Shown here in pieces: positions 43,255 through 62,485 of a stretch of 64,000 nucleotides of DNA. The notes under the pieces were generated by a model. It worked only from the letters and a program-made list of their open reading frames with translations, made no database searches and had not been told where the DNA came from. The translations under genes and the position numbers were made by a program. Origin of the DNA: Bradyrhizobium sp. CB1717 (GTDB lineage: Bacteria > Pseudomonadota > Alphaproteobacteria > Rhizobiales > Xanthobacteraceae). Numbering within the stretch: the stretch's first letter is position 1; every line of letters starts with the position of its first letter. The DNA lies in the NCBI RefSeq assembly GCF_029714325.1, contig NZ_CP121666.1, positions 3,286,001 to 3,350,000 of the forward strand, read 5' to 3'.

Positions 43255-43818
43255 TCAGGCGGCCTTGGCTTTGGCCACGTGGGTCGCGATCGCGTCCATC
43301 AGCGCCGGCGACAGGCAGTCATAGGGCTCGAGCCCGATTTCCTTCAGCCGCGAACGGATGCCGGCCATCTGCTCCGGCTTCACGCCGGATTCGATCACCG
43401 AGGAGACGAAGGCGGCGAATTGCGGCGCCTGCGAGCCCTGCTCCTGGAACAGTTCGGGATGGATGAAGTCGAGTCCGTAGAACGGATGGTTCTTGTTCTC
43501 GATGCGGCCGTACATGTGCGTGCCGCAGGCCTTGCAGGCATAGCGCTGGATCACCGCCGAGGGGTCGACGATCTGGAGCTTGTCGCCGTTCTCGAGCACG
43601 GTGACGTTCTGGCGTGGCACCACGGCGACGACGGAGAACGTCGCGCCTTGCGGCTTCCAGCATTTGGTGCAGCCGCAGGCGTGATTGTGGGCGACGTCGC
43701 CCTTGACGCCGACCTTGACCGGATGGTCGCTGCATTTGCAGACCAGGGTGCCGCCGGCAAAGCTGCCGCTCCCCTGCTTGACGCCGTTGTCGATCGATGG
43801 ATGGAGTGCAACAGTCAT
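43255..43818 (-). CDS. gfa: S-(hydroxymethyl)glutathione synthase (formaldehyde-activating, Gfa)
   Basis: 187 residues with the Gfa zinc-cysteine pattern: [23 protein letters not shown] and [13 protein letters not shown]. It speeds condensation of formaldehyde with glutathione, the entry step of the glutathione-linked formaldehyde pathway. It is 32 bases downstream of adhI and the last gene of xoxF-xoxG-adhI-gfa. Formaldehyde from methanol oxidation by XoxF is the obvious substrate once it enters the cytoplasm. Confidence 0.94.
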
Positions 43819-43850: not shown

Positions 43851-44960
43851 CTAGTACACGACGACTGAACGGATGGATTTGCCCTCGTGCATGAGGTCAA
43901 AGCCCTTGTTGATCTCTTCGAGCTTGAGCACGTGGGTGATCATCGGATCGATCTGGATCTTTCCGTTCATGTACCAGTCGACGATCTTCGGCACGTCGGT
44001 GCGGCCGCGCGCGCCGCCGAACGCGGTGCCGCGCCAGTTGCGCCCGGTGACGAGCTGGAACGGGCGGGTGGCGATCTCCTTGCCGGCTTCGGCGACGCCG
44101 ATGATGATCGAGGTGCCCCAGCCGCGATGGCAGGCTTCCAGCGCCTGGCGCATCACGGTGGTGTTGCCGGTGCAGTCGAAGGTGTAGTCGGCGCCGCCGT
44201 CGGTCAGGTTGACGAGATGCGGGACGATGTCGCCGGTGATCTTCTTGGGATTGACGAAGTGGGTCATGCCGAACCGGCGGCCCCAATCCTCCTTGGAGTC
44301 GTTGACGTCGACGCCGATGATCTTGTCGGCGCCAGCCATCTTGGCACCCTGGATCACGTTGAGGCCGATGCCGCCGAGGCCGAACACGACCACGTTGGCG
44401 CCCGGCTCGACCTTGGCGGTGTTGACGACGGCGCCGACGCCGGTGGTGACGCCGCAGCCGATGTAGCAGCTCTTGTCGAACGGCGCGTCCTCGCGGATCT
44501 TGGCGACCGCGATCTCCGGCAGCACGGTGAAGTTCGAGAAGGTCGAGCAGCCCATGTAGTGGTAGATCGGCTTGCCCTTGTAGGAGAAGCGGCTGGTGCC
44601 GTCGGGCATCACGCCCTTGCCCTGCGTCGCGCGAATCGCGGTGCAGAGATTGGTCTTCTGGCTCAGGCAGCTTTTGCACTGCCGGCATTCCGGCGTGTAG
44701 AGCGGAATGACGTGGTCACCCGGCTTCACCGAGGTCACGCCGGGGCCGATCTCGCGGATGATCCCGGCGCCCTCATGGCCCAGGATCGACGGGAAGATTC
44801 CCTCGCTGTCGAAACCGTCGAGCGTGTAGGCGTCGGTGTGGCAGATGCCCGTTGCCTTGATCTCGACCAGGACCTCGCCGGCCTTGGGCCCTTCCAGGTC
44901 GACTTCGACGATCTCGAGCGGCTTCTTTGCTTCGAAAGCGACGGCGGCACGTGTCTTCAT
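43851..44960 (-). CDS. adhI: S-(hydroxymethyl)glutathione dehydrogenase / class III alcohol dehydrogenase
   Basis: 369 residues, zinc medium-chain dehydrogenase. Catalytic zinc site [14 protein letters not shown] and GHEGAG; structural zinc [18 protein letters not shown] site [14 protein letters not shown]. It oxidises S-hydroxymethylglutathione to S-formylglutathione. ATG ending at 44960 after GAGGAGCTACC. The S-formylglutathione hydrolase (fghA) is not in the window. Also called flhA or adhC in relatives. Confidence 0.95.
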
Positions 44961-45020
44961 TGGTAGCTCCTCAAATTCTCGTAAGACGCCAGGACGTAGT
45001 CCCGGCGGTCCTCGCAACGT

Positions 45021-45542
45021 TCATTTCTTGCCCATGCAGGCGTCTTCGGCCTTGGTGTAGGCCTCATTCTTCTCCTCCTTCTTGGAGGGACGCTGTCGGC
45101 CCCACGCCTCGTCGGAGCGCGCGCGCAGATAGACATAGAGATCATCCATGTAGCAGGCGACGTTGGGGTTGTCGCCGAAGGCGGGCATGACGTTCTCCTG
45201 CGCGGTCGAGATGTTCTTGCGACCGGAGGCGACGACGCCAAGGAAGTCGCCATAGCTCATGGTCTTGACGGAATCCTTCAGCGCCGGTGCGTAGGTGGAT
45301 CCCATGCCGTCGGGGCCATGGCAGACGTGGCAGTCGGAGTGATAGCGGCGGTAGCCGGAATAGGTGAACCAGTCCACGGTGCCGTCGGCCGAAATCTTGT
45401 AGGTCGGGTTTCCTTCCTTATCGAGCCATTTCCCGTCGTCTTCTTTCTTCACGGCGGCCGGGTCGCCCGGACCGTCCGCGGTCGCAATTCCTCCCGACCC
45501 AACGAAGATCATCGCAGCAATGACAAAGCAGATTTTACGCAA
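45021..45542 (-). CDS. xoxG: Cytochrome c, electron acceptor of XoxF (XoxG)
   Basis: 173 residues from a TTG start at 45542, chosen because GAGGAAAAATCTC precedes it and the signal peptide begins there (RKICFVIAAMIFVGSGG). A single haem motif CHVCH (SDCHVCHGPDGMGS) and a distal Met region (NVMPAFGDNPNVA) are present. The charged C-terminal extension (RQRPSKKEEKNEAYTKAEDAC) is typical of cytochrome cL/XoxG. It lies directly after xoxF, separated by a strong stem-loop. Confidence 0.9.
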   Translation of the reverse strand: MRKICFVIAAMIFVGSGGIATADGPGDPAAVKKEDDGKWLDKEGNPTYKISADGTVDWFTYSGYRRYHSDCHVCHGPDGMGSTYAPALKDSVKTMSYGDFLGVVASGRKNISTAQENVMPAFGDNPNVACYMDDLYVYLRARSDEAWGRQRPSKKEEKNEAYTKAEDACMGKK

Positions 45543-45578
45543 GAGATTTTTCCTCGGAAGGCGTTCGGTGGAGACGAG

Positions 45579-45606
45579 CCGGCGCGTGGAGCGATCCACG
45601 CGCCGG
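45579..45606 (-). terminator. Perfect 12-bp stem-loop with GCGA tetraloop between xoxF and xoxG
   Basis: CCGGCGCGTGGA and TCCACGCGCCGG pair perfectly around GCGA, a GNRA-type loop. It sits 16 bases past the xoxF stop and 36 bases before the xoxG start. With no U-run it is best read as a partial terminator or a 3' stabiliser of xoxF mRNA. Confidence 0.75.
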
Positions 45607-45622: not shown

Positions 45623-47437
45623 CTAGTTCGTCGGCAGCGAGAACACGGTCAGCGTACCGCCGAGCGCCGTGTAGTTGCTGAGGGCCGCGTAGCCGCCGAC
45701 CGCGCCGAGACCGGCGGTCGGATCGGTCAGGCCGGCGGCCAGACCAATGCCGGCCCAGCCACCGACGCCGGAGAGCACTGCGACATACTGCTTGCCGCCG
45801 TTCTCATAGGTCGTGACGTTGCCGATGATGCCGGAGGGAGTCTTGAACTTGTAGAGCTCCTTGCCGGACTTGGCGTCGACCGCCTTCAGGTAGCCTTCGA
45901 GCGTGCCGTAGAACACCACGCCGCCGGCGGTTGCGAGCGCACCCGACCAGACCGAGAACTGCTCCTTGTTCGACCAGACGATCTTGCCGGTCTTGCCGTC
46001 CCAGGCGATGAAATTGCCCATGTGGCTTTCACCCTGCGGCGGATACATCGAGAGCGTCGCACCCACATAGGGCTGGCCCGCGGTGTAGCTCACCTTGAAC
46101 GGCTCGTAGTCCATGCAGACGTGGTTGGTCGGGACGTAGAACAGCTGCGTCTCCGGCGAGTAGGCTGCCGGCTGCTCGTCCTTGGTGCCGAGCGCGGCCG
46201 GGCAGATGCCCTTCACGTTGTGGTCTTCACCGGCCTTGTCGGTCGAAGCTGCGTCGAGCACCTTCGGACGGCCATAGGTCGGCGAGTTCTTGTCCATGTC
46301 GACGCCGGAGGTCCAGTTCACCTTCGGATCGTATTTTTCGGCGACCAGCAACTCGCCGTTCTCACGGTCCATGGTGTAGGCGAGACCGTTGCGATCGAAA
46401 TGGGTCAGGAGCTTGCGCGCCTGGCCGTTGATCTGCTGATCCGAGAGGATCATCTCGTTGACGCCGTCATAGTCCCACTCGTCGTGGGGCGTCATCTGAT
46501 AGACCCACTTGGCCATGCCGGTGTCGGCGTCGCGCGCGAAGATGGTCATCGACCATTTGTTGTCGCCCGGACGCTGCTTCGGATTCCAGGTCGAGGGGTT
46601 GCCCGACCCGTAATAGACCAGGTTCAGAGCGGGATCGTAGGACATCCAGCCCCAGGTGCAGCCGCCGCCGATCTTCCACTGATCGCCTTGCCAGGTCTTC
46701 AGCGAGGAGTCGGCTCCGACCGGCTTGCCGAGCGACGTCGTCTTGGCCGGATCGACCTTGATCTGGTCATCCGGACCTTCCGAGAAGGCGCGCCAGACTT
46801 GCTTGCCGCTCTTCAGATCGTAAGCGGTGACGTGACACTGCACGCCGAATTCGCCGCCGGAGATGCCGACCAGGACCTTGTCCTTGACGATGAGCGCCGC
46901 CGAGGTGCCGGTCTCACCCTTCGCAGGGTTGCCGTTGGTCGAACTCCAGGCCACCTGGCCTGTCTTGGCATCGAGAGCGACGAGGTTGGTGTCGGCCTGA
47001 TGCAGGATGATCTTGCCGTCGCCATAGGCCAAGCCGCGATTCACCGTGTCGCAGCACATCACCGGAATGACGTTCGGGTCCTGCTTGGGCTCGTACTTCC
47101 AGATGATCTTGTTCTCATTGGAAAGGTCAATAGCGTAGACCTTGTTCGGGAACGGCGTATGGACATACATGACGTTGCCGATGATCAGCGGGCCGCCTTC
47201 ATGGCCGCGCAGCACGCCGGTCGAGAAGGTCCAGGCGACCTGGAGCTTGCCCACGTTTTGTGCGTTGATCTGGTTCAGCTTGGAATAGCGGGTATTGGCG
47301 TAGTCCCCCGCCGGCATTACCCAGTCCTTCGGGTTCTGCGACATCTTGATCAGCTCGTCATTGGCTGAAGCGCTCCCGACGGCGAGAGCCGCCGCGGAGC
47401 CAAGATAGGTCGCCAGTAGCACCTTGCGCATAGTCAT
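45623..47437 (-). CDS. xoxF: Lanthanide-dependent methanol dehydrogenase XoxF
   Basis: 604 residues, periplasmic, signal peptide ending GSASA. It has the redox-active adjacent cysteines Cys128-Cys129 (MCCDTVNRG) and predicted metal ligands Glu196, Asn280, Asp322 and Asp324 (WDYDGVNE). Asp324 is the lanthanide-specific residue, Ala in calcium MxaF. It oxidises methanol, and possibly formaldehyde, passing electrons through PQQ to XoxG. GGAGGAA precedes the ATG. It heads the operon xoxF-xoxG-adhI-gfa, and an AraC regulator lies divergently 508 bases away. No mxaI or calcium-type mxaF is nearby. Confidence 0.96.
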
Positions 47438-47945
47438 TTCCTCCGTTGGTCTCGTTTATTGTTTCCGAAGCATTGCTCAATCACCGGGCTTCTCGTCCGG
47501 CGTCTGCTCGTGCAGGGCGGTCACTTTGGGACCAGAAACGATGCTGTGGTGTTTCCTCCTCCTGATGAGAGCCACGGGTCCACGTGCAGGAGCGGCCCGT
47601 TCTTGTTGTTCCTGCCGCAATCCCTAACCACTTCCCCATCGGGAAACTTGCCCAAGAGAGAAGGCGGTTTGCTTGACAGCGCACGGAGGCGAAGATTTTG
47701 ATTTTGCAGTAGCGAATTCAGCGGCTTCGGTAAGCCTTTTGCACTGCCTTCAACGCTCAGGTTCCCCTTGACGGCGCTGCAACTAAGGCGGAGGATTAAG
47801 TTTCAAGAGTGGCAATGGAACGATGGCGCTCGTTGCAAAAGACCGCTCAAATTCGAGGTAAACGTCACGCAATCACGGCTGAGGGCTCCGGTGGCGCTGG
47901 TCGCGATTCGCGTCGAATCTCCGGATCAAACCAGTGGCTGGATTA
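47438..47945. other. Divergent promoter region of xoxF and the AraC gene
   Basis: 508 bases with no credible gene. It must contain the xoxF promoter and probably binding sites of the divergent AraC regulator. I did not find a clear direct-repeat operator by eye. Confidence 0.5.
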
Positions 47946-48914
47946 ATGTCCGACACCATTCACACGCTTTCGACGACCGGAATGACGCCGAAGCGGCAGA
48001 TCCAGAGTTGGATCGACGGGCTGACGAGCCTGTGCGGGTATTTCGACGTCGATCCGCTGGAGGCGTCCTCGCTCGAAGGTCGCATCGACTACACCACGGT
48101 CTCGCGCCTGAAGCTCTGCCAGATCGAGGTCAGCCAGCATCGCATCGCGCACACGATGGCGCGCGCCAAGGCCAATGAACACCCGTACATAAAAATTCAC
48201 TTCCAGACCTACGGGGTGTCGTATTTCGAGCAGGAAGGCCGCCACATCGAAATCAATCCGGGCGACATCATCGCCTATGACGTCTCCTGCCCGCATTCGA
48301 TCATCAGTCCCGCCTTCACGCGTCACGATGTGGTGATCGTGCCGAAGGCGCTGCTGCGCGACCGCGGATTCCCCTCGCAGCGGATGCCTGCGTGCAAATT
48401 GTCGGCGAAGACGGGGACGGGGCGGATCGCCCATGATTTCGTCCATGCGACCTTCGACGAGGCGGCAAAACTGTCCGCGAACAGCGCGGTCGGCGTCGCC
48501 GATTCGCTGATCGACCTGCTGCTGCTGCCGCTACGCGAAGCCGACACGATGTTCGACCGCGTCGGGCCCGAAGCGATGTATGTGCGTGCCCAGTTCTTCA
48601 TCCGCGAGCACCTGCGCGATCCCGACCTGTGCATCGACCAGATCTCCGCCGAACTCGGCTGCTCCAAGCGCTATCTGCACATGCTGTTCTCCGAGCGCGG
48701 CACCACGGTGAGCGACTACATCTGGCAGGCTCGCCTGCAGAACTGCCGGCAGGAGCTCGAGGCGCACGCCGGCAAGACCATCACCGACGTGGCGTTCTCC
48801 TGGGGGTTCTCCAGCTCATCGCATTTCAGCCGCGTGTTCCGGAAATATTTCGGCGTGGTGCCGTCCTCGATCCACAAGGCCCAGCAGGGCACGGCGGCCT
48901 CGGGCGAACATTAG
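47946..48914 (+). CDS. AraC-family regulator divergent from xoxF
   Basis: 322 residues. An N-terminal AraC-binding-2 type sensor region (KIHFQTYGVSYFEQEGRHIEI, GDIIAYDVSCPHSI) is followed by a C-terminal double HTH (LCIDQISAELGCSKRYLHMLF and ITDVAFSWGFSSSSHFSRVF, then RKYFGVVPSSIH). Its position suggests control of the xoxF operon, but it is not one of the described MxbDM/MxcQE-type systems. The start is ATG 47946; a GTG four codons earlier is possible. Confidence 0.87.
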   Translation: MSDTIHTLSTTGMTPKRQIQSWIDGLTSLCGYFDVDPLEASSLEGRIDYTTVSRLKLCQIEVSQHRIAHTMARAKANEHPYIKIHFQTYGVSYFEQEGRHIEINPGDIIAYDVSCPHSIISPAFTRHDVVIVPKALLRDRGFPSQRMPACKLSAKTGTGRIAHDFVHATFDEAAKLSANSAVGVADSLIDLLLLPLREADTMFDRVGPEAMYVRAQFFIREHLRDPDLCIDQISAELGCSKRYLHMLFSERGTTVSDYIWQARLQNCRQELEAHAGKTITDVAFSWGFSSSSHFSRVFRKYFGVVPSSIHKAQQGTAASGEH

Positions 48915-48953: not shown

Positions 48954-49379
48954 TTACGCAGTCCTCGCAATATAGGGAATGCTCGCCACGAGAGCGACGA
49001 GCAGCGCCGCATTGCCCAGCATTCCGCTCCAATGCAGCCGGCGCAACCGGCGCGGAGCCTCGGTATCGCCGGCGTCCCTCGCGTTGAGCTGGTCGTCCAT
49101 CCGTTGCATGAACCAGCGGCGTCCCCAGATCGCCAGGGCCGCGAGCACGCCGACGCCCATCGCGGCAAGCAGGCGGCCGTCGAGCAGGAGAATCACCGTT
49201 CCGACGACGCCGGCAACGCGCATCACCAGGAAATGGGCGTTGAACATTCCGCGCAGCAACTGCGCGACGGGCTGGATATCGAGCTTCACCAGCAGGAAGG
49301 CGGGCGATGCCAGCGTGAAATAGCCCATCGGAAAGAGCAGGATGACCATAACGCCAACGGCGACTGCATCCGGTGTCAT
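48954..49379 (-). CDS. Small integral membrane protein, unknown function
   Basis: 141 residues with about four hydrophobic helices (VAVGVMVILLFPMGYFTLA, VMRVAGVVGTVILLLDG, LAAMGVGVLAALAIW, NAALLVALVASIPYIA) and a basic loop (RRWFMQRMDDQLNARD). The ATG ending at 49379 has AGAAGGG upstream. Longer frames 5' of it are not protein-like. It is convergent with the AraC gene. No family recognised. Confidence 0.7.
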   Translation of the reverse strand: MTPDAVAVGVMVILLFPMGYFTLASPAFLLVKLDIQPVAQLLRGMFNAHFLVMRVAGVVGTVILLLDGRLLAAMGVGVLAALAIWGRRWFMQRMDDQLNARDAGDTEAPRRLRRLHWSGMLGNAALLVALVASIPYIARTA

Positions 49380-49519
49380 GCGATCGGCCCTTCTTGTCCG
49401 CCCCACGCGGCCCCACGGCAACGGCACAATCATAGCGTGAAAATGCGTTTCCAACACTAGGCTTTGGTCGGACGCCGGGCCGCCCAGCGGACGCTTTTCC
49501 GCTGCGCCTTGCCCAAGGT

Positions 49520-50521: not shown

Positions 50522-50630
50522 GATTCTCTCCCCGGTTTTTGCCGAAGGTACTGCATCGGGCTGGCGCCGGCATGGGCGGCAGGCGAGACAGATTGGCGCA
50601 TTCGAGAAAGCGGCGCTGCTCATTTGGGCG

Positions 50631-51656
50631 TCACCCGGACGGTCGCACCTTTCGTACGACCCGCAGCCAGACGATTTCGGTCAGCGCCACTGCAATCAGG
50701 CCGAAGGTGCCGCCGATCAGGACGTTGACGATGCGCTCCTCGGCGATGCCGCTGGCGCCGCCGGCAAAGGACGCAGCCAGCGCAATGAAGAAGCAGCGCA
50801 GGCCGAAGCCGACGATATAGCGGGATAACGAGATCAGCGTGAGGGTGGCCGCGAGCACAGCGACCGCATAGCCGACCCGGCTTTGCGGCAGCGCCATGCC
50901 GGCGAGGAAGCCGAGCGGCACGCCGACGAGGGCGCCGATCGCCCGCTGCTTCAGCTTGCCGGTGGAGGCGGCGAGATCGCCGACGACGACGCTTGCGGCC
51001 GACCACATCACCCATTGCCCCTGCGCAAGGTCGAGGAGCTCGACCAGCGCGGCCGCAGCGAACACCGCCATGGCGGTTGCGAGCGCGGGCAGAAACCACG
51101 CGTCCGCGGGCGGCCCGAACGAGGTCGAAGCGGCACCGCCGCGCCGGCGCCGGTCGTAAATCTGGATGGCGCAGACCAGCGCCAGCGCGATCGGAGAGGA
51201 CACGATGATCACGCCGGCATGCCGCAGCGCCTCGGACGCGCTGACACCTTCCCGCACTTCACAGGCGAGATAGACGGCGGGAATGAACACCCAATTGCCG
51301 AGGGTGCGGAAATGCTCGCCATAGCGCGTCCCCGCCACCGCCAGGAAGCCGGCAAGCGCCGTCAGCACCGCGAACAACGGCTTGATCGGAGCAGCGAGAA
51401 AAAGCGCGGAAAAGGTGACGAGAATGGCAAGGTAGTGCCACGCGACCACCTTGGGCGGAAGGTGCAGCCTGAGCGCGGGAATGAGCAGCGAGACCGCGAC
51501 CAGGGCGAGATTGAGCAGCGCCGTCTCGCGCGCGATGAAATAGGCCGCCACCATCGGGCCGACGACGATCAGCGCGCGCGCGAGCTCGCGGGTCTTGATC
51601 TCCCGGGAGAGGACGTCGCGCAGATCGGCGGCAGAAGGAATGGTCGGTGAATTCAC
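50631..51656 (-). CDS. FUSC-type aromatic-acid exporter-like membrane protein
   Basis: 341 residues. Two blocks of about five to six membrane helices each are separated by a basic stretch (IYDRRRRGGAAS). The second block (WVMWSAASVVVGDLAASTGKLKQRAIGALVG, GIAEERIVNVLIGG) is the FUSC signature found in fusaric-acid and p-hydroxybenzoate efflux proteins. The start is uncertain; a GTG ending at 51656 just before NSPTIPSAADL is preferred because upstream sequence is not coherent. It is about half the length of the full FUSC exporters and lacks their cytoplasmic domain. Confidence 0.75.
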   Translation of the reverse strand: MNSPTIPSAADLRDVLSREIKTRELARALIVVGPMVAAYFIARETALLNLALVAVSLLIPALRLHLPPKVVAWHYLAILVTFSALFLAAPIKPLFAVLTALAGFLAVAGTRYGEHFRTLGNWVFIPAVYLACEVREGVSASEALRHAGVIIVSSPIALALVCAIQIYDRRRRGGAASTSFGPPADAWFLPALATAMAVFAAAALVELLDLAQGQWVMWSAASVVVGDLAASTGKLKQRAIGALVGVPLGFLAGMALPQSRVGYAVAVLAATLTLISLSRYIVGFGLRCFFIALAASFAGGASGIAEERIVNVLIGGTFGLIAVALTEIVWLRVVRKVRPSG

Positions 51657-51743
51657 AGGGCACCGAATGGGCGAATGAAATGCAAAGCATAGCACGGAAT
51701 GACGTCGGCACTTTAACGTCGCACGAGGGGCGCACCACACCCT

Positions 51744-51853
51744 CCGCTGTCATCGCCCGGCTTGACCGGGCGATCCAGCACCCCGAGACAGTTGTGGTCC
51801 AATCGACGGGCCGCGGCGTACGGGATGCCCCGGTCGAGCCGGGGCATGACACC
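51744..51853. repeat. Palindromic intergenic repeat, third family
   Basis: It consists of TGTCATCGCCCGGCTTGACC with GGGCG, then a second unit GATGCCCCGGTCGAGCCGGGGC-ATGACA. Each unit is a hairpin, and the outer TGTCAT/ATGACA pair as well. It resembles a dispersed Bradyrhizobium repeat. It lies between the exporter gene and the XoxJ-like gene. Confidence 0.75.
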
Positions 51854-51880
51854 GGCTATGTGGAGGTACGTGAGGTCACG

Positions 51881-52804
51881 TCACCGCTGAATGATCTTCA
51901 TCCAGACATCGCCCAGGATCGCCGGCTCGCGCGGCGGCAGATAGGTCAGGCCGGCCTGCTTGCCGAACTCTGCGATCTTGCCTTCCGCGGCAAGCTCCGT
52001 CAGCGCCTTGTTGACCGCCTCGATCAGCGCGGGCTCGCTGGCGAGCCCCACATAGCCGCGATTGGCGCCGATCGGGTAGTAGTAGCCGGACGCGGTGATC
52101 GCCGTATCGGGATGCGCGGCGCGATAGGCGTCGAAGCGGCCGAGGTCAATCAGCGTCGCGTCATGGTCGCCGCGGTTGAGCGCGCCGAGGAGGTCGTCGC
52201 GGCCGGGGACGAGATGCGTGATGCTGTCGATCAGGCGTCCCTTGTCGAAGGTCATCAGGATGGCATCGCCGAGCGAGCCGCTCTCGATCACGAGGCGGAG
52301 GCCGGCGAGATCGCCGATGTCGGCGATCTTGCGCCCCTGCGCCTTCGGTCCGAGCACCACCGTCATGGGCGAATAGACGTAAGGCCGGCTCGGTGCGAGC
52401 ACGCCAAGCGCGACGCGGCGGCGCCGGTCATCGCGGGTGGCCCCGGCGAAGTCCGGCAGGCGCGCCGTCTTCATGCCGGGCTTGACGAGGGAATCCATCG
52501 TCAGCGCGTAGCCGCCGACCAGCGCGCAGCGCCCGTCGGAGAGCAGTGCATTGGCCTCGAGCTGCGGGCTGGAATCCTCGTCCAGCTTGCTTTCGAACCA
52601 CTGGATCTTCAGCGGCCGGCCAAGACGCTCCGCAATCGCCTGCGCCAGCAGCACGTCGAAGCCGGCGTCCGGCTTGCCCTTGTGATGCACCGAGAGCGGC
52701 GGCCGGTCCTCGTCGAGACAGATTTTCAGCGGATCGTCGGCCGCATGCGCGGTGGCCGCCGCGAGCATCGCAGCAACGCTCCACACCGCGAGCCAGCGTC
52801 TCAT
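51881..52804 (-). CDS. Quinoprotein-associated periplasmic binding protein (XoxJ/MoxJ-like)
   Basis: 307 residues with a signal peptide (RRWLAVWSVAAMLAAATAHA) and a type II solute-binding fold (LKICLDEDRPPLSVH, GFDVLLAQAIAERLGRPLKI, DATLIDLGRFDAYRA). This subfamily is found beside PQQ alcohol dehydrogenases and cytochromes c and is thought to help activate the dehydrogenase rather than import a solute. The ATG overlaps the cytochrome stop (ATGA). It is third in the operon with a PQQ dehydrogenase and cytochrome. No ABC permease is attached. Confidence 0.85.
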   Translation of the reverse strand: MRRWLAVWSVAAMLAAATAHAADDPLKICLDEDRPPLSVHHKGKPDAGFDVLLAQAIAERLGRPLKIQWFESKLDEDSSPQLEANALLSDGRCALVGGYALTMDSLVKPGMKTARLPDFAGATRDDRRRRVALGVLAPSRPYVYSPMTVVLGPKAQGRKIADIGDLAGLRLVIESGSLGDAILMTFDKGRLIDSITHLVPGRDDLLGALNRGDHDATLIDLGRFDAYRAAHPDTAITASGYYYPIGANRGYVGLASEPALIEAVNKALTELAAEGKIAEFGKQAGLTYLPPREPAILGDVWMKIIQR

Positions 52805-53157
52805 GGCTTCCTCCGACTCGAGACGAAGGCCCAGAGATCACCGATATCGTCGTCGCTCAGGATATCGCCCCAGGGCGGCATCTTGTTGTTCTTGCCGTTC
52901 TTCACGGTAGTGACGAAGCGCGTCTTGTCGTCGGGAAAGGCGCGCAAATCCGGCGTGATGGTGCCGGAGTTCATCATGTTCGGGCCGTGGCAGTGCGAGC
53001 ATTTCGAAGCATAGGTCGACTTGCCGTGGTCGATCTGCGTCTGCAGGGGATTGCCGGTTGCGTCATCGGCGGCGCGGACGGTCGCCGCAAGCGCGACCGT
53101 CAGCATCGCGACGGTGGCGATCGTCGCCACCGTCTTCTGGGCTACGTCTTTCAGCAT
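52801..53157 (-). CDS. Small periplasmic cytochrome c, partner of the PQQ dehydrogenase
   Basis: 118 residues with a signal peptide (TVATIATVAMLTVALAATVRA), one haem motif CSHCH (KCSHCHGPNMM) and a distal Met in NNKMPPWGDILSD. Class I monohaem cytochrome of the c550 type used by ethanol-type quinoproteins. It begins 10 bases past the dehydrogenase stop and overlaps the XoxJ-like gene, so all three are coupled. Confidence 0.9.
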   Translation of the reverse strand: MLKDVAQKTVATIATVAMLTVALAATVRAADDATGNPLQTQIDHGKSTYASKCSHCHGPNMMNSGTITPDLRAFPDDKTRFVTTVKNGKNNKMPPWGDILSDDDIGDLWAFVSSRRKP

Positions 53158-53167
53158 CGTGCCGTGG

Positions 53168-54832
53168 TTACTGCTTGACCGCAAAAACCCACAGCGAGCC
53201 GCCGGGCGGCACCTTGGCAAGCCGCTCGTCACCGGAGAACAGCGAGTAGACGCCGCCATAGCCGCTTGTGACCGCGACATACTGCACGCCGTCCTGCTGC
53301 CAGGTCACCGGTTGTCCCTCGATGCCGGAGCCGGTCTGGAACTGCCAGAGCTTCTTGCCGCTGTCGGCATCGAAAGCCTCGAACTCGCCGGTCAGCGCGC
53401 CCGTGAACACGACGCCGCCCGCGGTCGACAGCACTCCGGAGAAGCGCGGAATGTCGGCGGGAGCTTCCCACTTGGCCTTGCCGGTCATGGGATCGATCGC
53501 CTTCAGATGACCGCGCGCGCCGTCACCCCATTCCCAGAGGTCGGTGAGGTCCATGCCGAGATACCATTCACCCTGCTTGAAGGTAACAGGTTCGGTCTTG
53601 TACCTGCCGCCGAAGGCGAGGGTGTTGGCGTAGGCGAGGCCGGTCTGCGGGTTGAACGACATCGGCTCCCAGTTCTTGCCGCCGAGGATCGACGGATAGA
53701 CCGTCACCTTTTTGCCCTCGCGCGCGTCCTTGCTGACATCGGTCTCGATCGGACGGCCCGTCTTCATGTCGATGCCGGTTGCCCAGTTGACCTTCACGTA
53801 GGGGTTGGCCGCGAGCAGCTTTCCATTGGTGCGGTCGAGCACGTAGAAGAAGCCGTTGCGGTTGGCGTCCATCAGCACCTTGGTCGGCTTGCCTTCGACG
53901 TTCATGTCGGCGAGCACCATCTCGGCCACCGAGTCATAGTCGAACGGATTGTTCGGCGAGAACTGGTAGTGCCACTTGATCTTGCCGGTCTTGGGATCCA
54001 TCGCCAGCACGGAGCAGGTGTAGAGATTGTCGCCGGGGCGCACCGCCGAATTGAACGGGCCGGGATTGCCGATGCCCCAATACACCGTGTTCAGCTCGGG
54101 ATCGTAGGACCCGGTGATCCAGGTCGAGCCGCCGCCGAGCTTCCAGGTGTCGCCCTTCCAGGTGTCGCCGCCGGGCTCGTCCGGCGAGGGGATCGAATGG
54201 GTGCGCCAGAGATGCTTGCCCGTCGCCGGATCCCAGCCGTCGATGAAGCCGCGGGTGCCGAACTCGGCGCCGGAGATGCCGGTGATGACGACACCGTCGG
54301 CGACCAGTGGCGCCACCGTCATCGAATAGCCTTCCTTGATGTCGGCCGCCTTCTGCCGCCACAGCTCCTTGCCGTCCTTGGCGTCGAGCGCGATCACGTT
54401 GGCATCCAACGTGGTGCGGAACACCTTGCCGTCGTAGAGCGCCGCGCCGCGGTTGATGATGCCGCAGCAGACGATGCGCGGCGTCTCGGCGGGATATTCG
54501 ATCTTGGATTTCCAGATCTGCTTGCCGGTCTTGGCATCGACCGCCATGGTCGCGTTGTGGGAGGTCACGTAGATCACGCCCTGGTACACCAGCGGCTGCG
54601 ATTCCTCGCTGCGATCGTCATTGAAGGAGTAGTTCCAGACCGGGACGAGGTTCTTGACGGTGTCCTTGTTGATCTGGTTCAGCGTCGAGAAGCGCTGCAG
54701 ATTGTAGCCCATCCCGTAGTTGAGAACGTTCGATGTATCGGTCGCGCCCTTGACCAGCTGCTCGGTGGTCTGTGCGTACGCACACGTCGATGCAAGCATG
54801 ACGAGGCTCGCGGCCATCGCAAAGCGTTTCAT
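53168..54832 (-). CDS. PQQ-dependent alcohol dehydrogenase, ExaF/PedH-like, lanthanide-type
   Basis: 554 residues, signal peptide ending STCAYA. It has adjacent cysteines Cys122-Cys123 (IVCCGIINRG) and predicted metal ligands Glu190 (GAEFG), Asn256 (GIGNPGPF), Asp298 and Asp300 (FDYDSVAE). The additional Asp300 predicts lanthanide dependence, as in ExaF and PedH. It probably oxidises ethanol or other short alcohols. GGAGGAACGG precedes the ATG at 54832. Operon order is dehydrogenase, cytochrome c, XoxJ-like; the lanmodulin-like gene is divergent, 332 bases away. Confidence 0.92.
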   Translation of the reverse strand: MKRFAMAASLVMLASTCAYAQTTEQLVKGATDTSNVLNYGMGYNLQRFSTLNQINKDTVKNLVPVWNYSFNDDRSEESQPLVYQGVIYVTSHNATMAVDAKTGKQIWKSKIEYPAETPRIVCCGIINRGAALYDGKVFRTTLDANVIALDAKDGKELWRQKAADIKEGYSMTVAPLVADGVVITGISGAEFGTRGFIDGWDPATGKHLWRTHSIPSPDEPGGDTWKGDTWKLGGGSTWITGSYDPELNTVYWGIGNPGPFNSAVRPGDNLYTCSVLAMDPKTGKIKWHYQFSPNNPFDYDSVAEMVLADMNVEGKPTKVLMDANRNGFFYVLDRTNGKLLAANPYVKVNWATGIDMKTGRPIETDVSKDAREGKKVTVYPSILGGKNWEPMSFNPQTGLAYANTLAFGGRYKTEPVTFKQGEWYLGMDLTDLWEWGDGARGHLKAIDPMTGKAKWEAPADIPRFSGVLSTAGGVVFTGALTGEFEAFDADSGKKLWQFQTGSGIEGQPVTWQQDGVQYVAVTSGYGGVYSLFSGDERLAKVPPGGSLWVFAVKQ

Positions 54833-55164
54833 CCGTTCCTCCCAATATGCGCGCCTTTTGACGCTGCGACGGCAACACTCCGCCCGAATGCAAAACGCGT
54901 CAATACGAAAGTCGTAATCGCGACGCGGATATGTTGAACGCCGGATGCCAGTCACCTGACGGAGACCTTACAGACGACTCTCACTTGCGTGCAGGCGCTG
55001 GAAAAATTCCGCGGCATGGCGCAGTGCTCGGGCACAGGTGCGGGCAGTTGGGTTCCCTGGGGTTGTGCGGCGCGCGGGTTGTAATTCCGCTTCCTGGGCT
55101 CGCCTTGCCGACTTATGTTGCCTTGATCCCGCTTGAATCGGGGCTCTTGGTCTGGGAGGTCTTG
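54833..55164. other. Shared upstream region of the PQQ dehydrogenase and lanmodulin-like genes
   Basis: 332 bases without a credible gene, holding both divergent promoters. A short palindrome at 54905-54917 lies 73-85 bases from the dehydrogenase start. No riboswitch fold was recognised. Confidence 0.5.
54905..54917. promoter_or_regulatory. Candidate operator palindrome TACGA-AAG-TCGTA
   Basis: Perfect 5-bp arms around a 3-base spacer, upstream of the ExaF-like operon and in the region shared with the lanmodulin-like gene. No second copy was spotted upstream of the other quinoprotein genes, so the regulator is unknown. Confidence 0.4.
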
Positions 55165-55551
55165 ATGATATCGCGTCGTTCTGTTGCACTTGCGCTCACG
55201 CTTGCAGTTCTGTCCGGCCCCGCCTGGTCGGCATCCGCCGTCAAGATGTTCGATACCGACAATGACGGGACGCTCGATCTTGCCGAAGTGAAGAAGGCTG
55301 CGAGCGCGCTGTTCGCCAAGCTCGATCCCGATCACGACGGCACGCTGGACGCGCGTGAATTGCGCGGACGGTTAACGGCGAAGGAGCTCGCCGCCGCCGA
55401 TCCCGATCGTGACGGCACGCTCACGCTCGACGAATATCTGTCCGTGGTGGAGCAGCGCTTCAACGCGGCCAATCCCGACAAGGACGGAACGCTGGACGCA
55501 AAGGAGCTCAACTCGCGCGCCGGCCGGGCGCTGCTGCGATTGCTGCGGTAG
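55165..55551 (+). CDS. lanM: Lanmodulin-like lanthanide-binding EF-hand protein
   Basis: 128 residues with a signal peptide ending AWSASA. Four EF-hand loops lie at residues 30-41 (DTDNDGTLDLAE), 54-65 (DPDHDGTLDARE), 79-90 (DPDRDGTLTLDE) and 103-114 (NPDKDGTLDAKE). Proline at loop position 2 in three of four hands, spacing of only 12-13 residues between hands, an Asn first residue in hand 4 and the closing AG-ALLRLLR helix are all hallmarks of lanmodulin. That periplasmic protein binds lanthanides far more tightly than calcium. Hand 1 has Thr instead of Pro, and hand 3 has Thr at position 9 instead of Asp. ATG at 55165 after GGGAGGTC. Confidence 0.88.
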   Translation: MISRRSVALALTLAVLSGPAWSASAVKMFDTDNDGTLDLAEVKKAASALFAKLDPDHDGTLDARELRGRLTAKELAAADPDRDGTLTLDEYLSVVEQRFNAANPDKDGTLDAKELNSRAGRALLRLLR

Positions 55552-55712
55552 CGCTTGACTGGGAGCGAAGGCGATTTGCACGAGAGCGAAATTCGCAAGC
55601 AATATTCGACAGTTCGCTTTATTCGCGGCTCGATTCCAGCTTGCGCTGTGCATGATGCAGCCCTAGGTTTTGCCCCGCGCGATGTCGCGCTCAATCCCTT
55701 GGGAGACCCCGA

Positions 55713-55793
55713 ATGGCTTGGAAAGCTCCGAAGATCGTGGAAGTGCCGGTCGGCATGGAAATCAACATGTACGCCTGCGCTGCGCGCAAGTAA
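55713..55793 (+). CDS. pqqA: PQQ precursor peptide PqqA
   Basis: A 26-residue peptide beginning MAWKAPKIVEVP and ending ACAARK. It contains the Glu16 and Tyr20 (GMEINMYA) that PqqE cross-links to make the PQQ skeleton. GGGAGAC lies seven to eight bases before the ATG. Length, start MxWxxPxxxE and the E-x3-Y core fit PqqA exactly. No pqqBCDE follows; the next gene is an outer-membrane protein. It is therefore an orphan or additional pqqA copy beside the quinoprotein genes. Confidence 0.9.
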   Translation: MAWKAPKIVEVPVGMEINMYACAARK

Positions 55794-55856
55794 GACTGAC
55801 GAACCTGCCGCGGCTTCGGTGGCGAATGCCATCGGAGCCGTGGTAGTGTTCGCCGG

Positions 55857-56726
55857 ATGCGCATTGGAGCCCACACAATTCGGATGGCGGTCGCGTGCAC
55901 GGTCGCGCTCGCGCCGGCATGCGCAGGCGCCGAAGAGGGTTTTGATACCGAGCACATCTTCGGCTTCATGATCGGCACCGATGTCGGCAACGTCGGTGAG
56001 CGCGAATTCCAGACCCAGACCACGGGCCGCTTCGGCAAGGGCGGCGGCGCCTATCGTGCCCTCGCGCAGGAGGTCGAGATCGAAGTGGTGCCGCTGCCGA
56101 ACTTCCGCATCGAGCTCGGCGGCACGGCCAGCCTGCACGACATCACCGGCGTCCCTGACATCGACGACCGCCGCCAGTTCAATTTCCAGGGCGCCTCGCT
56201 CGACCTGCGTTACCGCCTGCTTGATCGCGAGCGTGCCCCGTTCGGTCTCACCATCTCCGCCGAGCTCCATGGCGACCGTATCGACGAGACCAGCGGCGCC
56301 AAGGGGCGGATGTACGGCACCGACTTCACGCTCGCCTTCGACCGCGAGCTCGTTCCGAACTTCGTCATCGGCGCGCTCAATTTGATCTATCAGCCGGAAT
56401 GGGCGCGCTTCGAGGTGGCGGGGACGTCCGAGAAGAGTTCGACCATCGGCGCGGCGTTTGCCGCCCTGGCGCGGGTGCGCCCCAATGTGCTGCTCGGCGG
56501 CGAGATGCGCTATTTCCGGCAATATGAGGGCATCGGCCTCGGCGAGTTCTCAGGCCAGGCTCTGTTTGTCGGGCCGACGGCCTATTTCCAGCTATCGGAG
56601 AAGTCGCGGCTGACCCTGAGCTGGAGCATGCAGGCCTGGGGGCGCCCGACCGGCGCAGGCGGCAATCTCGACCTCGTCAATTTCGAGCGCCATCAGGCGC
56701 GACTGGTGTTCGGGGTGAATTTTTAG
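55857..56726 (+). CDS. Outer-membrane beta-barrel protein, unknown function
   Basis: 289 residues with a signal peptide (AVACTVALAPACAGAEE). Alternating amphipathic strands (FRIELGGTASLHDI, ASLDLRYRLLDRERAPFGLTISAEL, PNVLLGGEMRYFRQY, SRLTLSWSMQAWG) close with a C-terminal FGVNF, the BAM recognition type of ending. It lies 63 bases after pqqA on the same strand and after lanM, so it may be co-expressed with them. No known family recognised; a role in the periplasmic quinoprotein system is speculation. Confidence 0.72.
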   Translation: MRIGAHTIRMAVACTVALAPACAGAEEGFDTEHIFGFMIGTDVGNVGEREFQTQTTGRFGKGGGAYRALAQEVEIEVVPLPNFRIELGGTASLHDITGVPDIDDRRQFNFQGASLDLRYRLLDRERAPFGLTISAELHGDRIDETSGAKGRMYGTDFTLAFDRELVPNFVIGALNLIYQPEWARFEVAGTSEKSSTIGAAFAALARVRPNVLLGGEMRYFRQYEGIGLGEFSGQALFVGPTAYFQLSEKSRLTLSWSMQAWGRPTGAGGNLDLVNFERHQARLVFGVNF

Positions 56727-56868
56727 CGCGCTTGTTTCGCCTCTACCGACGTGCGCGGAGAGGGGACGGAGGTAGTTCCCCCATCCTGACGTCCGATTGA
56801 AACTTCCCGCTCCCTGACACGTAACCTATCGTGCTAGTCTCGATTGCCCCCGGCGAGAGGATCCCGGA

Positions 56869-57078
56869 ATGAACCCGATCGACCTTGTGGTGACTGTGTG
56901 TGCGGTGCTCTCGCCTGCGACTTGCGAGGAGCAGCATCTGGTGTTCAACTATTCGGGGTCGCCCCGCCAATGCGTGATGGCCGCGCCGCCCTATATCGCG
57001 CAATGGGTCGGCGAGCATCCGAAATGGCAGGCGGTGCGCTGGCGCTGCGAATATCCGCACCCGAACGACAAGGCGTAA
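56869..57078 (+). CDS. Small conserved protein of unknown function
   Basis: 69 residues (starts MNPIDLVVTVCAVLSPATCEE, ends WRCEYPHPNDKA) with four cysteines. GAGAGGATCCCGGA precedes the ATG. The N-terminal hydrophobic stretch may act as an export signal. Similar short proteins are, as I recall, widespread in Bradyrhizobium. Nothing indicates its function. Confidence 0.65.
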   Translation: MNPIDLVVTVCAVLSPATCEEQHLVFNYSGSPRQCVMAAPPYIAQWVGEHPKWQAVRWRCEYPHPNDKA

Positions 57079-57097
57079 GCCGGGCGCGCTGCTCTAA

Positions 57098-57196
57098 GAT
57101 CCTCATGGTGAGGAGCGCGAAGCGCGTCTCGAACCATGCAGGCCCGGCTCTCGCTCGCAGCCATCCTTCGAGACGCCTGCTTCGCAGGCTCCTCAG
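57098..57196. repeat. Palindromic repeat interrupted by the insertion sequence (left part)
   Basis: It begins GATCCTCATGGTGAGGAGC and runs to GGCTCCTCAG at the insertion junction. The missing right edge, GATGAGGGG, is found at 58324 after the element. Joined, the ends read CTCCTCAGGATGAGG, which pairs with the left arm as expected for this rhizobial repeat. Confidence 0.8.
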
Positions 57197-57211
57197 CGAC
57201 TGTGTTCTTCG

Positions 57212-58144
57212 TCAAGCGGGTTGCCATTGTTTTTGGTCCCTGAGCATGGCGTTGAGGATGGTGAGGACTTTGCGAGCGACGGCGATGAGGGCCACCATCT
57301 TCGGCTTCCCGGCGATCAGCAGGCGTTGATAGAAGAGCTTGAGCTGCGGATGGTGTCGGCTGGCCGAGAGAGCGGCCATGTAGAGCCCGGCGCGCAGTGC
57401 GGCTCGCCCGCCGCCGATCATGCTCTTGCCCTTCCAGCGGCCGGATTGGCGGGTGAACGGAGCAAGGCCGGCGAGGCTTGCGATCTGGCGCCGATTGAGG
57501 GTGCCGAGCTCGGGCACCTCGGCCAGGAAGGTGCGGGCGAGCGTGTTGCTTACACCCGGAAAGCTCACCAGCAACTCCTCCTTGGCGCGCCAGACCGGCG
57601 AACCGCGCACCAGCGTGTCGATGTCGTTGTCGATCTCCAGCAGCTCCTTCTCGAGGACCTTGATGTGGCGGGCAAGGCTCTTGCGAACGCGGACATTCTC
57701 GGCCCGCTTCTCGCGCTGGCGCTCGGCAACGATCATCTCGATGATCTGCCGTCGGCGGCTGACCAGTTCGGCCAGCAGCCGGGCTTCCTGATCTGGCATG
57801 GCACGCGGCGTCGGCTTCACCGCCTCGACAAACCGCGCGATGACTGCCGCATCGATCGGATCGGTCTTGGCGCGCTGGCCAACGGCCTGCGCGAAGTGCC
57901 GGATTTGGGCCGGATTGACCACCACCAGCGGCAGTTGGGCGCCGGCCAGCGCCGCCGCGACAATGGTCTCGAAGCCGCCCGTCGCTTCCACTGCAATCAG
58001 CGTTGGCGAACAGGCCTGCAGACGAGCAACAAGGTCTTCCAAGCCTTTGCCGTCACGCGCCACGGCAAAGGCTTCCCCGCTCGGACGCAAATGCACGTCC
58101 AGCCGGTCCTTCGATACATCAATGCCAATATAGATCGCGTCCAT
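57212..58144 (-). CDS. IS110-family transposase (DEDD recombinase)
   Basis: 310 residues. The N-terminal RuvC-like DEDD domain has YIGIDVSKDRLDVH, VEATGGFE and QRAKTDPIDAAVIARF. The C-terminal Transposase_20 domain, FPGVSNTLARTFLAEVPELG and IASLAGLAPFTRQSGRWKGK, carries the catalytic serine region. It is full length and undamaged, so the element may be active. The start ATG ends at 58144; the frame runs on into the non-coding end of the element, but that part is not transposase. Confidence 0.95.
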   Translation of the reverse strand: MDAIYIGIDVSKDRLDVHLRPSGEAFAVARDGKGLEDLVARLQACSPTLIAVEATGGFETIVAAALAGAQLPLVVVNPAQIRHFAQAVGQRAKTDPIDAAVIARFVEAVKPTPRAMPDQEARLLAELVSRRRQIIEMIVAERQREKRAENVRVRKSLARHIKVLEKELLEIDNDIDTLVRGSPVWRAKEELLVSFPGVSNTLARTFLAEVPELGTLNRRQIASLAGLAPFTRQSGRWKGKSMIGGGRAALRAGLYMAALSASRHHPQLKLFYQRLLIAGKPKMVALIAVARKVLTILNAMLRDQKQWQPA

Positions 58145-58321
58145 CTGCACCCATCCTTGCGCAATCGGGCTCGCCAGGCGGCCCTCGCGACTGTTCGGGT
58201 TCAATGGAACAACGGACGGGGCGCCGCGCTGAGGCTCGGGCTTCAAAGCCCTGGGATGAGGCGGTCTCCCGTCCGCTACCGCACCGGACACTCTATCCGA
58301 TCCAGTGAGTCGAAACTTACA
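58145..58321 (-). ncRNA. Predicted IS110 bridge RNA region
   Basis: Non-coding 5' end of the element. Read on the minus strand, a first loop has CCTCATC (plus 58255-58261) and CCTCAG (58229-58234) on either side of a GGGCTT-TG-AAGCCC hairpin (58238-58251). These match the two genomic flanks (58324-58330 and 57191-57196). A second loop has ACAGTCG (58188-58194), matching the right element end (57197-57203), and CAAG (58156-58159), matching the left end with the core. This is the target-loop then donor-loop order known for IS110 bridge RNAs. Exact RNA ends are not known. Confidence 0.8.
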
Positions 58322-58344
58322 AGGATGAGGGGAGGTGCTTGCGG

Positions 58345-58692
58345 CTACTTCGTGCAGTCCTTCAGGTCCTTGTCGGCGATCGAGAACACGGCGTCCGCCC
58401 TGATCTCGATGTCGCGGACGATGCACTGCCGCGCGCTGGGATAGCTGACCTTGGCGTCGTAGCGGCCGGGCTCGACGCCGGTGATGCGCAGCCGCTCGTC
58501 ATGGTCGACCTCCTTGTCCTTGTCGTTGAGACACTGGTTCGGTCCCCAGTCGGCCTTGCCGGCGGGCGAGAGCTGGAAGCCGGAGATCGTCTCCGTCGTC
58601 AGATTCCACAGCCTTATGCCCTTGCCCTTGGTCTGCGCGGCGGCTTCGCCGGCAAGCGTCAACAACGCGATCAAAGCCAGATTCCAACGCAT
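58345..58692 (-). CDS. Small exported protein, last gene of the ABC/pentapeptide operon
   Basis: 115 residues with a signal peptide (RWNLALIALLTLAGEAAAQ). The mature part has two central cysteines and a terminal one (NQCLNDKDKEVDHDERL, ARQCIVRDIEI, LKDCTK) and looks like a small beta-rich periplasmic domain (IRLWNLTTETISGFQLSPAG). It starts 27 bases past the pentapeptide-repeat gene. No family recognised. The insertion sequence sits 21 bases past its stop, so it was not disrupted. Confidence 0.72.
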   Translation of the reverse strand: MRWNLALIALLTLAGEAAAQTKGKGIRLWNLTTETISGFQLSPAGKADWGPNQCLNDKDKEVDHDERLRITGVEPGRYDAKVSYPSARQCIVRDIEIRADAVFSIADKDLKDCTK

Positions 58693-58719
58693 CAGCCAGT
58701 CCCTCCCAAAGGCGCGCCG

Positions 58720-59528
58720 TCATTCCCTGATCAGGCGCTCGCGGTTCTTTGCCTTGTCGAAATTTTTGGCGCGGTCAAGGCCGTTCGGTGCGATCAGCTT
58801 TGCCGAGACGAGATCGGCGCCGTCGAAGTCCGCGTCGATGACGATGGCGCCGGTCAGATCGGCTCCACCGAGCTGGGCGTTTTTCAGTGATGCGCCGCTC
58901 AGATCGGCGCCCCTGAGGACTGCGAATTCGAGGTCGACACGCGACAAATCGGCGTTGCGCGCGTTCAGCCGTTCCAGGTTGGCGGATCTCAGCACCGCGC
59001 GCATCAGTCCCATCGACTGGTTGCGCATATCGGCGCCAAGATGCGCGTCCGCGATCGAGGCGCCGACCAGGCTGGCGCCGGTGAGGTCGGCAGCGATGCG
59101 CGCTCCCGACAGGTTCGCGCCGTCGAGACGCGCGCGGGCCATTTGCGAGGCGAACAGATTGGCGCCTTTCAGGCTTGCGCCGGTCAGATCCGCATCCAGC
59201 AGCCACGCCTGATCGAGGATCGCGCGGTCAAGCCTGGCGTCTCGGAGTATCGTCTTGTTGAGCCGCGCGGCGCGGAGAACCGCGTTGGACAGGTCCAGCC
59301 CCGAGAGATCGAGACCCGACAGGCGTTTGCCGGTGAAATCGGCAGGTTGCGCTGGGCTCGCTTTGGCCAGCACGGCCTCGACCTCTGGCCTCGTCATTTC
59401 GGCCGAGACCATCGCGGGGGAGGTAAGGTCGACGCCACGCATCATGTCCTGCGCGCCCGCCGTCATCGCAACGAGTGCGAGGCTGAGCGCTGCAAGACCA
59501 AGCGTTGCGAGGGTGACTGTTCGCGTCA
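58720..59528 (-). CDS. Exported pentapeptide-repeat protein
   Basis: 269 residues with a signal peptide (LATLGLAALSLALVAMTAGAQ). From about residue 65 there are two long runs of A(D/N)LxG-type pentapeptides (LSGLDLSGLDLSNAVLRAA, DLTGASLKGANLFASQMA, ADLSGASLKNAQLGGADLTG) that fold as a right-handed quadrilateral helix. It lies 48 bases after an ABC ATPase gene in the same operon. A periplasmic location is unusual for the better-known cytoplasmic pentapeptide proteins. Function unknown. Confidence 0.85.
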
Positions 59529-59576
59529 TCGTCAACTCCGCCGCCGGCCTGTCTAGCACGTCCGCCAGGCGACCGG

Positions 59577-60305
59577 CTATGAGACATCTCGCTCAGTGCG
59601 GTCGCCGTGAATCCGTTGGGCGAGGCCGGACTTGATCGCCGCAATCTCGGCTTCGCCGCGCATGTCGCGCGGGATGCCGATAGGCACCTCGGCCACGATC
59701 CGCGCCGGCCGCGGCGACAGGAAGAACAGCCGGTCGCCCAGGCGCACTGCATCGTCCAGGCTGTGTGTCACCAAAAGCGTCATCACCGGGCGGCTCGCCA
59801 CCAGCGTCGCGATCTCGTCACGCAGGCGGCCGGCGAGGGCGTCGTCGAGCGAGGCCAGGGGCTCGTCGAGCACCAGGAGATCGGGCTCGACCGCAAAGGC
59901 GCGCGCGAGCGCGACGCGGCGGGCAAGCCCCAGCGACAATTCGCCGGGGAAGTGGCTGCGATGGGCTTCCAGCTCCAAAATCCTGAACAGCTCGGACAGC
60001 TTGGCTTCGGTGACATCGGGCGCCGCCAGCCGCACATTCTGCTCGACCGAGCGCCACGGCAGCAGTCGCGGCTCCTGGAACACCATGCCGATCCGCGCCT
60101 CCGGCGGCCGCGCGATGCGGCCTCCAAAGTCGTGGTCCAATCCCAGGATGATGCGCAGCATCGTGCTCTTGCCGCAGCCGGACGGGCCGATCAGCACGCC
60201 GACCTCGCCGGATTGAAGCGCGAACTTGACCGGCGCCAGCACCTCGTGCGTTCCGCCCGCGGCACTCCTGAAGGTCTTGCCTGTGATATCGACCTCAAGC
60301 CGCAC
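59577..60305 (-). CDS. ABC transporter ATP-binding protein (NitT/TauT-like), quinoprotein region
   Basis: 242 residues from a GTG at 60305 with AGGTGG upstream. Walker A GPSGCGKST, Q-loop FQEPRLLPW, signature LSLGLARR (a variant of LSGGQ), Walker B LLVLDEPLASLD and H-loop THSLDDAV. The variant signature is tolerated in this subfamily. It overlaps the permease gene by 11 bases. The substrate is unknown; the neighbourhood suggests a link to PQQ enzymes or their metal. Confidence 0.9.
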   Translation of the reverse strand: MRLEVDITGKTFRSAAGGTHEVLAPVKFALQSGEVGVLIGPSGCGKSTMLRIILGLDHDFGGRIARPPEARIGMVFQEPRLLPWRSVEQNVRLAAPDVTEAKLSELFRILELEAHRSHFPGELSLGLARRVALARAFAVEPDLLVLDEPLASLDDALAGRLRDEIATLVASRPVMTLLVTHSLDDAVRLGDRLFFLSPRPARIVAEVPIGIPRDMRGEAEIAAIKSGLAQRIHGDRTERDVS

Positions 60306-61032: not shown

Positions 61033-61033
61033 C

Positions 61034-62461: not shown

Positions 62462-62485
62462 TTTCTGCTGCGCAAACGGTGGTCT

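Follow-up and report, generated by a model that had tools for sequence, protein, structure and literature searches.

A lanmodulin gene between a PedH-like dehydrogenase operon and a solo pqqA in Bradyrhizobium sp. CB1717

We analysed a stretch of 64,000 nucleotides (the window) from Bradyrhizobium sp. CB1717 (contig NZ_CP121666.1, positions 3,286,001 to 3,350,000), in which a gene on the forward strand (55165..55551) was assigned to lanmodulin (lanM for the gene, LanM for the protein). Its open reading frame (ORF) of 387 bp encodes 128 aa plus a stop codon. The product probably starts with a signal peptide (about residues 1-23, 55165..55233), as judged by eye from an N-terminus that has low confidence in the AlphaFold2 (AF2) model. 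From the translation and a loop alignment, four EF-hand loops follow on the same strand: EF1 DTDNDGTLDLAE (residues 30-41, 55252..55287) with Thr at position 2, EF2 DPDHDGTLDARE (residues 54-65, 55324..55359), EF3 DPDRDGTLTLDE (residues 79-90, 55399..55434) with the codons of Thr9 and Asp11 at 55423-55425 and 55429-55431, and EF4 NPDKDGTLDAKE (residues 103-114, 55471..55506). A gene for a PedH/ExaF-like alcohol dehydrogenase of the pyrroloquinoline quinone (PQQ) type (554 aa, 53168..54832, reverse strand) diverges from lanM across an intergenic region of 332 nt (54833..55164), and a solo pqqA for a PQQ precursor peptide of 26 aa (55713..55793, forward strand) starts 161 nt 3' of lanM.

The lanmodulin assignment is supported by the agreement of the family model, the match to solved lanmodulins, the predicted fold, and the spacing and proline rules. 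The linkers between the hands are 12, 13 and 12 residues, Pro occupies position 2 in EF2, EF3 and EF4, position 1 is Asp in EF1-3 and Asn in EF4, and position 9 of EF1-3 is Asp, Asp and Thr. An earlier note on this DNA had pointed out the spacing of 12-13 residues, the three prolines and a signal peptide, and all of these were found again, the last one by eye only. The mature protein gave four loop matches, while 20,000 composition shuffles gave none in 19,946 cases and one in 54, never more than one. With NF053806.1, the curated equivalog model of LanM, the protein scored 180.5 bits against a cut-off of 135, which bears out the identity proposed in that note. The opposite outcome, best matches to ordinary EF-hand proteins with a spacing of 24-25 residues, did not appear, and the sequence matched solved lanmodulins in the Protein Data Bank. 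The protein also has the features used to define lanmodulins in PMC10232371, that is, four EF hands, fewer than 200 residues and at least one pair of hands less than 14 residues apart, and it follows the rule of Pro2 in at least one loop. The AF2 model is a compact three-helix bundle with peripheral metal sites, whose match to the LanM fold is well above those to calmodulin-type folds. In the single-contig genome of 9.23 Mb, a homology search at E 0.001 returned this gene only and no second LanM. The protein is 100% identical to LanM of Bradyrhizobium huanghuaihaiense CGMCC 1.10948 (locus L067).

Compared with LanM of Methylorubrum extorquens AM1 (Mex-LanM; 6MI5, 8FNS), 62 of 110 aligned residues are identical, and the loop spacing, Asn1 of EF4 and the fold (from the model in our case) are alike. 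On the other hand, EF1 has Thr2 in place of Pro2 of Mex-LanM, and EF3 has Thr9 and Asp11 in place of Asp9 and Lys11. Moreover, lanM of the window adjoins the PedH-like gene and pqqA, whereas Mex lanM lies in the lut cluster (PMC9260416; this paper, PMC10848612, PMC11845868, PMC12482762 and PMC12628762 are cited for the portions of them that were covered). LanM of Methylobacterium aquaticum 22A also has Thr2 in EF1, shifts its conformation with La, and is not encoded in a lut cluster, but it differs in Lys2 of the second hand and in neighbours that are described as functionally unrelated to lanthanide transport (PMC9260416).

The residues were then compared across the genus in 111 rows (the window, L002-L031 and L067-L146, without second LanM copies), 98 of them distinct, in which the same species may occur twice among the genomes. 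The loop alignment mentioned above left out matches below 80 bits and L040-L066, which are weak class-level matches. The 80 named loci used for gene order rank best among 258 confirmed ones; 79 are titled Bradyrhizobium and one (L110, JAUEPE010000019.1) Frankia sp. RB7, and they make up the 81-locus sets together with the window. The lanM locus of L110 is that of Bradyrhizobium, gene order included, and L110 probably comes from a mislabelled or mixed assembly. The 98 distinct proteins have Thr (79) or Pro (19) at position 2 of EF1, Thr (97) or Ser (one) at position 9 of EF3, Asp (96) or Glu (two) at position 11 of EF3, and Asn (78) or Asp (20) at position 1 of EF4. Thus, Asn opening hand 4 is present in the window as had been noted, but it does not define lanmodulins. 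Likewise, Thr at EF1 position 2 and at EF3 position 9 are real, but they are not departures peculiar to this protein as had been supposed, both being usual in the genus, and lanM is under purifying selection. EF1 position 2 and EF4 position 1 covary (Thr/Asn 77, Pro/Asp 18, exceptions 3). In the 111 rows, Thr9 of EF3 occurs in 110 through four different codons (Ser in the other one), and Arg98 (EF3 position 20) in all 111, also through four codons. The use of several codons and the median dN/dS of lanM against the window copy, 0.049, show that selection maintains these residues.

The change at EF3 position 9, which had been noticed before, is one half of an exchange that had been overlooked, in which the acid moves from position 9 to position 11. 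We surveyed EF3 in the 120 top matches to each of three query sequences, with a few others added, a sample that is not random, with 366 distinct rows, of which one was gapped in EF3 and 365 were counted. Thr or Ser at position 9 co-occurs with Asp or Glu at position 11 in 264 of 279 homologues, while Asp9 does so in just one of 83. LanM of Hansschlegelia quercus (Hans-LanM; 8DQ2, 8FNR) combines Glu9 and Asp11, and in two further rows Gly9 stands without an acid at 11. The exceptions include the second LanM copies of L147-L149, with Ser9 and Asn11. In EF2 of the same homologues, Thr or Ser9 occurs in 66 and acid at position 11 in none of these 66, so the link between positions 9 and 11 is peculiar to EF3. 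On a tree of 85 rows and 99 columns, Thr/Ser9 takes nine changes at best, of which well supported branches force only one, and the paired test of positions 9 and 11 restricted to supported branches comprises one pair only. The exchange may thus go back to shared ancestry rather than to independent origins. A review making the comparison with Mex-LanM confines Glu9 and EF3-Asp11 to Hans-LanM (PMC11845868, portion covered). Our survey differs from this statement, since an acid at EF3 position 11 is common in the sampled homologues and normal in the Thr/Ser9 group. In Mex-LanM, Asp9 of EF3 hydrogen-bonds a metal-bound water, and Hans-LanM uses Asp11 to buttress Arg100 across its dimer interface (PMC10232371). 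In the Bradyrhizobium clade, Thr in place of the acid at 9 together with the acid at 11 would alter the ordering of water at EF3, and may shift the affinity or size preference of this site alone, with a possible effect on the choice of metal, and binding would not be abolished.

The divergent dehydrogenase has PedH (6ZCV) as its best solved relative (E 8.2e-138) and shares with it, as known here from sequence, the second Asp of the lanthanide site, two residues past the catalytic Asp in the D-x-D marker FDYDSV. It is likely a lanthanide-type PedH/ExaF-like enzyme, as the earlier note had it. A PedH-like gene diverges from lanM in 76 of the 80 named loci, and the motif FDYD[S/A]V was found in the same number. 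Behind it on the reverse strand are genes for a c-type cytochrome (52801..53175, PF13442; start codon picked by eye, with the longer ORF 52801-53280 used in the scan), the likely electron acceptor of the dehydrogenase, and for a periplasmic solute-binding protein (51881..52804, PF00497), which may be called XoxJ-like from the gene order. In the intergenic region, about 80 nt nearest the dehydrogenase gene are strongly conserved and the lanM half is poorly conserved, and a shared lanM promoter motif was rejected on this distribution. A strongly conserved block upstream of the PedH-like gene (54890-54916, TACGA-AAG-TCGTA) is a possible regulator site, with a single copy in the window at up to two mismatches; in its inverted repeat TACGA-N3-TCGTA (54904-54916), the left arm is mostly kept and the right arm is variable. 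No sigma-70-like site came up in a simple scan of 54800-55860, and 44000-64000 had no Rfam match to a known RNA element at gathering thresholds.

The solo pqqA scored 46.3 bits with TIGR02107 (cut-off 20), and the Glu-x3-Tyr core is present in all 12 PqqA variants of the 81 loci. All 80 named loci have it 3' of lanM, at most 2 kb away and in the same orientation, and it is present as well in 30 of 30 genus loci of the earlier set from 146 genomes. In a further comparison of 29 LanM loci from this and other genera, pqqA accompanies lanM in 9 of 9 from Bradyrhizobium and 0 of 20 from the others, as counted with the strict motif GMEI-x2-Y within 1.5 kb, which a divergent peptide could escape. The genome has pqqE at 2.835 Mb with its own pqqA at 2.8386 Mb, about 500 kb from the lanM locus, with pqqB-, pqqC- and pqqD-like ORFs between them (by eye), and a third, weaker pqqA-like match at 7.489 Mb. 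The distance from the lanM start to the pqqA start is at least 700 nt in 37 of 81 loci and short in the other 44. Two loci have a small exported-looking ORF (at most 125 aa, MNTKRS...GPCNTG...) between the two genes with about 500 nt extra (L091:10478-10855, L106:10488-10865), and the long-spacing loci L002 and L115 are without such an ORF. The pqqA leader (55645..55712, forward strand) contains blocks conserved in the 81 loci, and parts of it are conserved in both spacing classes, more weakly in the long one. This conservation suggests that pqqA may have its own promoter, and it weakens, together with the long spacing, the idea of a single lanM-pqqA transcript.

At 8-12 kb from lanM, the window carries on the reverse strand genes for an XoxF5-type lanthanide methanol dehydrogenase (45623..47437; 1068 bits to M. 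extorquens XoxF 6oc5, marker WDYDGV), an XoxG-like methanol-metabolism cytochrome (45021..45599, TIGR03874), S-(hydroxymethyl)glutathione dehydrogenase (frmA, 43851..45017, TIGR02818) and S-(hydroxymethyl)glutathione synthase (gfa, 43255..43818, TIGR02820). An AraC/FeaR-like regulator gene lies beside xoxF5 (47934..48914, forward strand; 178.3 bits with the FeaR model, short of the required 199). Bradyrhizobium sp. USDA 3456 has the four genes from xoxF5 to gfa in identical order, they were up-regulated 27- to 59-fold on methanol plus La compared with succinate plus La, and growth on methanol requires a lanthanide (PMC12628762); the main text of that paper contains no word starting with lanM, lanmod, exaF or pqqA. 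Of the 80 named loci, 67 have xoxF5 in the flanking sequence that was retrieved. L128 and L144 lack the PedH-like operon, and in both lanM follows an AraC-type regulator (by eye) adjoining xoxF5. Because of this arrangement and the proximity of xoxF5, we consider XoxF5 and the divergent PedH-like enzyme equally likely to be served by LanM.

Taken together, we propose that the protein is an exported lanmodulin that binds lanthanide ions (Ln3+) in the periplasm and keeps them available for the neighbouring PQQ alcohol dehydrogenases, with a probability of about 0.78. The LanM family, the loops, the gene order and the conservation are established at the level of sequence. LanM would be exported to the periplasm, bind three to four Ln3+ with disorder-to-order folding by analogy with Mex- and Hans-LanM, and buffer Ln3+ for, or pass it to, XoxF5 and the PedH-like enzyme. 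The solo PqqA would add PQQ precursor, and one locus would thus furnish both cofactor halves, metal and quinone, under a regulation that we presume. Several points weigh against this proposal. M. aquaticum 22A and an mxaF-negative M. extorquens PA1 showed no defect in methylotrophic growth after deletion of lanM (PMC9260416), so the delivery role is unproved even in studied LanM hosts. L124, L128 and L144 keep lanM and pqqA with no PedH-like gene in 10 kb upstream, which means that this enzyme is not an obligate partner of LanM (L089, also without the dehydrogenase, is uninformative for that gene, its record beginning 604 nt ahead of lanM). In another methylotroph, all three pqqA copies were down with Nd and a lanthanide cocktail (PMC10848612), and in Bradyrhizobium methanol did not induce the genes of PQQ synthesis (PMC12628762). 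The AF2 model was built from a shallow alignment (32 close relatives), and AF2 may have been trained on LanM structures. Bradyrhizobium lanmodulins are already in print in a survey listing 15 plasmid-borne ones (PMC12482762); in the open full-text literature, with subscription papers and supplements outside the search, we found neither binding, expression, localisation or other biochemical data on a Bradyrhizobium LanM nor a description of the lanM-pqqA pairing or the EF3 9/11 exchange.

The lanM deletions without growth defect fit as well the explanation that LanM stores or detoxifies excess periplasmic Ln3+ while the dehydrogenases obtain their metal by another route such as lut transport. 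A review calls the transport role of LanM unclear (PMC11845868), and lut homologues have been reported in Bradyrhizobium (PMC12628762). Gene order alone would be compatible with storage, but the linkage to a lanthanide-type dehydrogenase in 76 of 80 loci and to pqqA in 80 of 80 suits cofactor supply better, and we regard storage as possible but rather unlikely. Dimerisation through EF3 as in Hans-LanM is improbable: the two proteins share Asp11, which serves the Arg100 contact there (PMC10232371), and of the Hans network of Asp3, Glu9, Asp11 and Arg100 the window protein retains Asp3 and Asp11, but it has Thr9, and Glu96 (EF3 position 18) aligns with Arg100, Arg98 being two residues beyond. 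Asn1 and Glu9 are also absent from EF1-3, and the Hans-type dimer was rejected on these key residues. A very improbable explanation is an ordinary calcium-binding EF-hand protein, the name under which many public records list the homologues ('calcium-binding protein', 'EF-hand domain-containing protein' or similar); general Pfam EF-hand models do match, but calmodulin-type Ca sensors have adjacent hands about 25 residues apart, and the short linkers, the three Pro2 loops, the equivalog score and the fold led us to discard it.

A more far-reaching proposal is that the Bradyrhizobium lanmodulins are a third functional type, marked by the movement of the EF3 acid from 9 to 11 (Thr9-Asp11) and the genus-invariant Arg at EF3 position 20, and encoded with pqqA in a lanthanide-controlled cofactor cassette that would feed metal and PQQ precursor to XoxF5 and the PedH-like enzyme. 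We hold this only tentatively and think it doubtful as a whole.

Some Bradyrhizobium genomes have a second lanmodulin (at least 5 of 146; L147-L151 in G040, G056, G082, G130 and G060), 64-67% identical to LanM of the window, or 55% in the copy broken by two stops (G130). Four genomes have it about 18-19 kb away from the first copy and the fifth has it on a separate contig, its EF3 contains GTLSVNE in the four intact copies, and no pqqA match was found near it in any of the five loci. In L148 and L149, it adjoins another quinoprotein dehydrogenase and a response regulator (by eye), and L149 has additionally a sensor kinase and a second regulator (by eye). The window genome retains relatives of the kinase, the second regulator and the S-formylglutathione hydrolase, with no match to the second LanM or its dehydrogenase at the corresponding region. 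As for other genes of the window, the gene 3' of pqqA (55857..56726, forward strand; relatives in 67 of 80 named loci) encodes a protein that matches DUF6662 weakly, under the cut-off of that family. An IS110-family transposase gene (57212-58426) separates it from an ABC transporter (59577-62065), and L069 is the only one of the 80 named loci whose flank has a match to IS110 (38% identity). The transporter gave no sign of being a lanthanide transporter, its best NCBIfam matches being phosphonate-, sulfonate- or taurine-type and below their cut-offs. Further on are a quinoprotein-associated SoxYZ-like carrier (62649-63467, TIGR04557 over its cut-off) and a relative of zinc metallohydrolase 2 (63530-64000), which is cut by the window end and continues in L193. 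A third quinoprotein dehydrogenase of the window (37344-39191) did not match the lanthanide-marker pattern used.

Finally, few lanmodulins have been characterised, and those in the papers covered derive from methylotrophs. LanM was found in 107 of 146 sampled genomes, about three quarters of this sample of a legume-symbiont genus. Since an acid at EF3 position 11 is usual in the Thr/Ser9 group, the role of EF3-Asp11 can be studied apart from dimerisation. The cellular role of LanM can be tested directly through the lanM-pqqA pairing, because the two genes can be removed separately beside a lanthanide-dependent methanol pathway. Moreover, a legume-symbiont genus with a differing EF3 offers a natural comparison for studies of rare-earth selectivity and separation.
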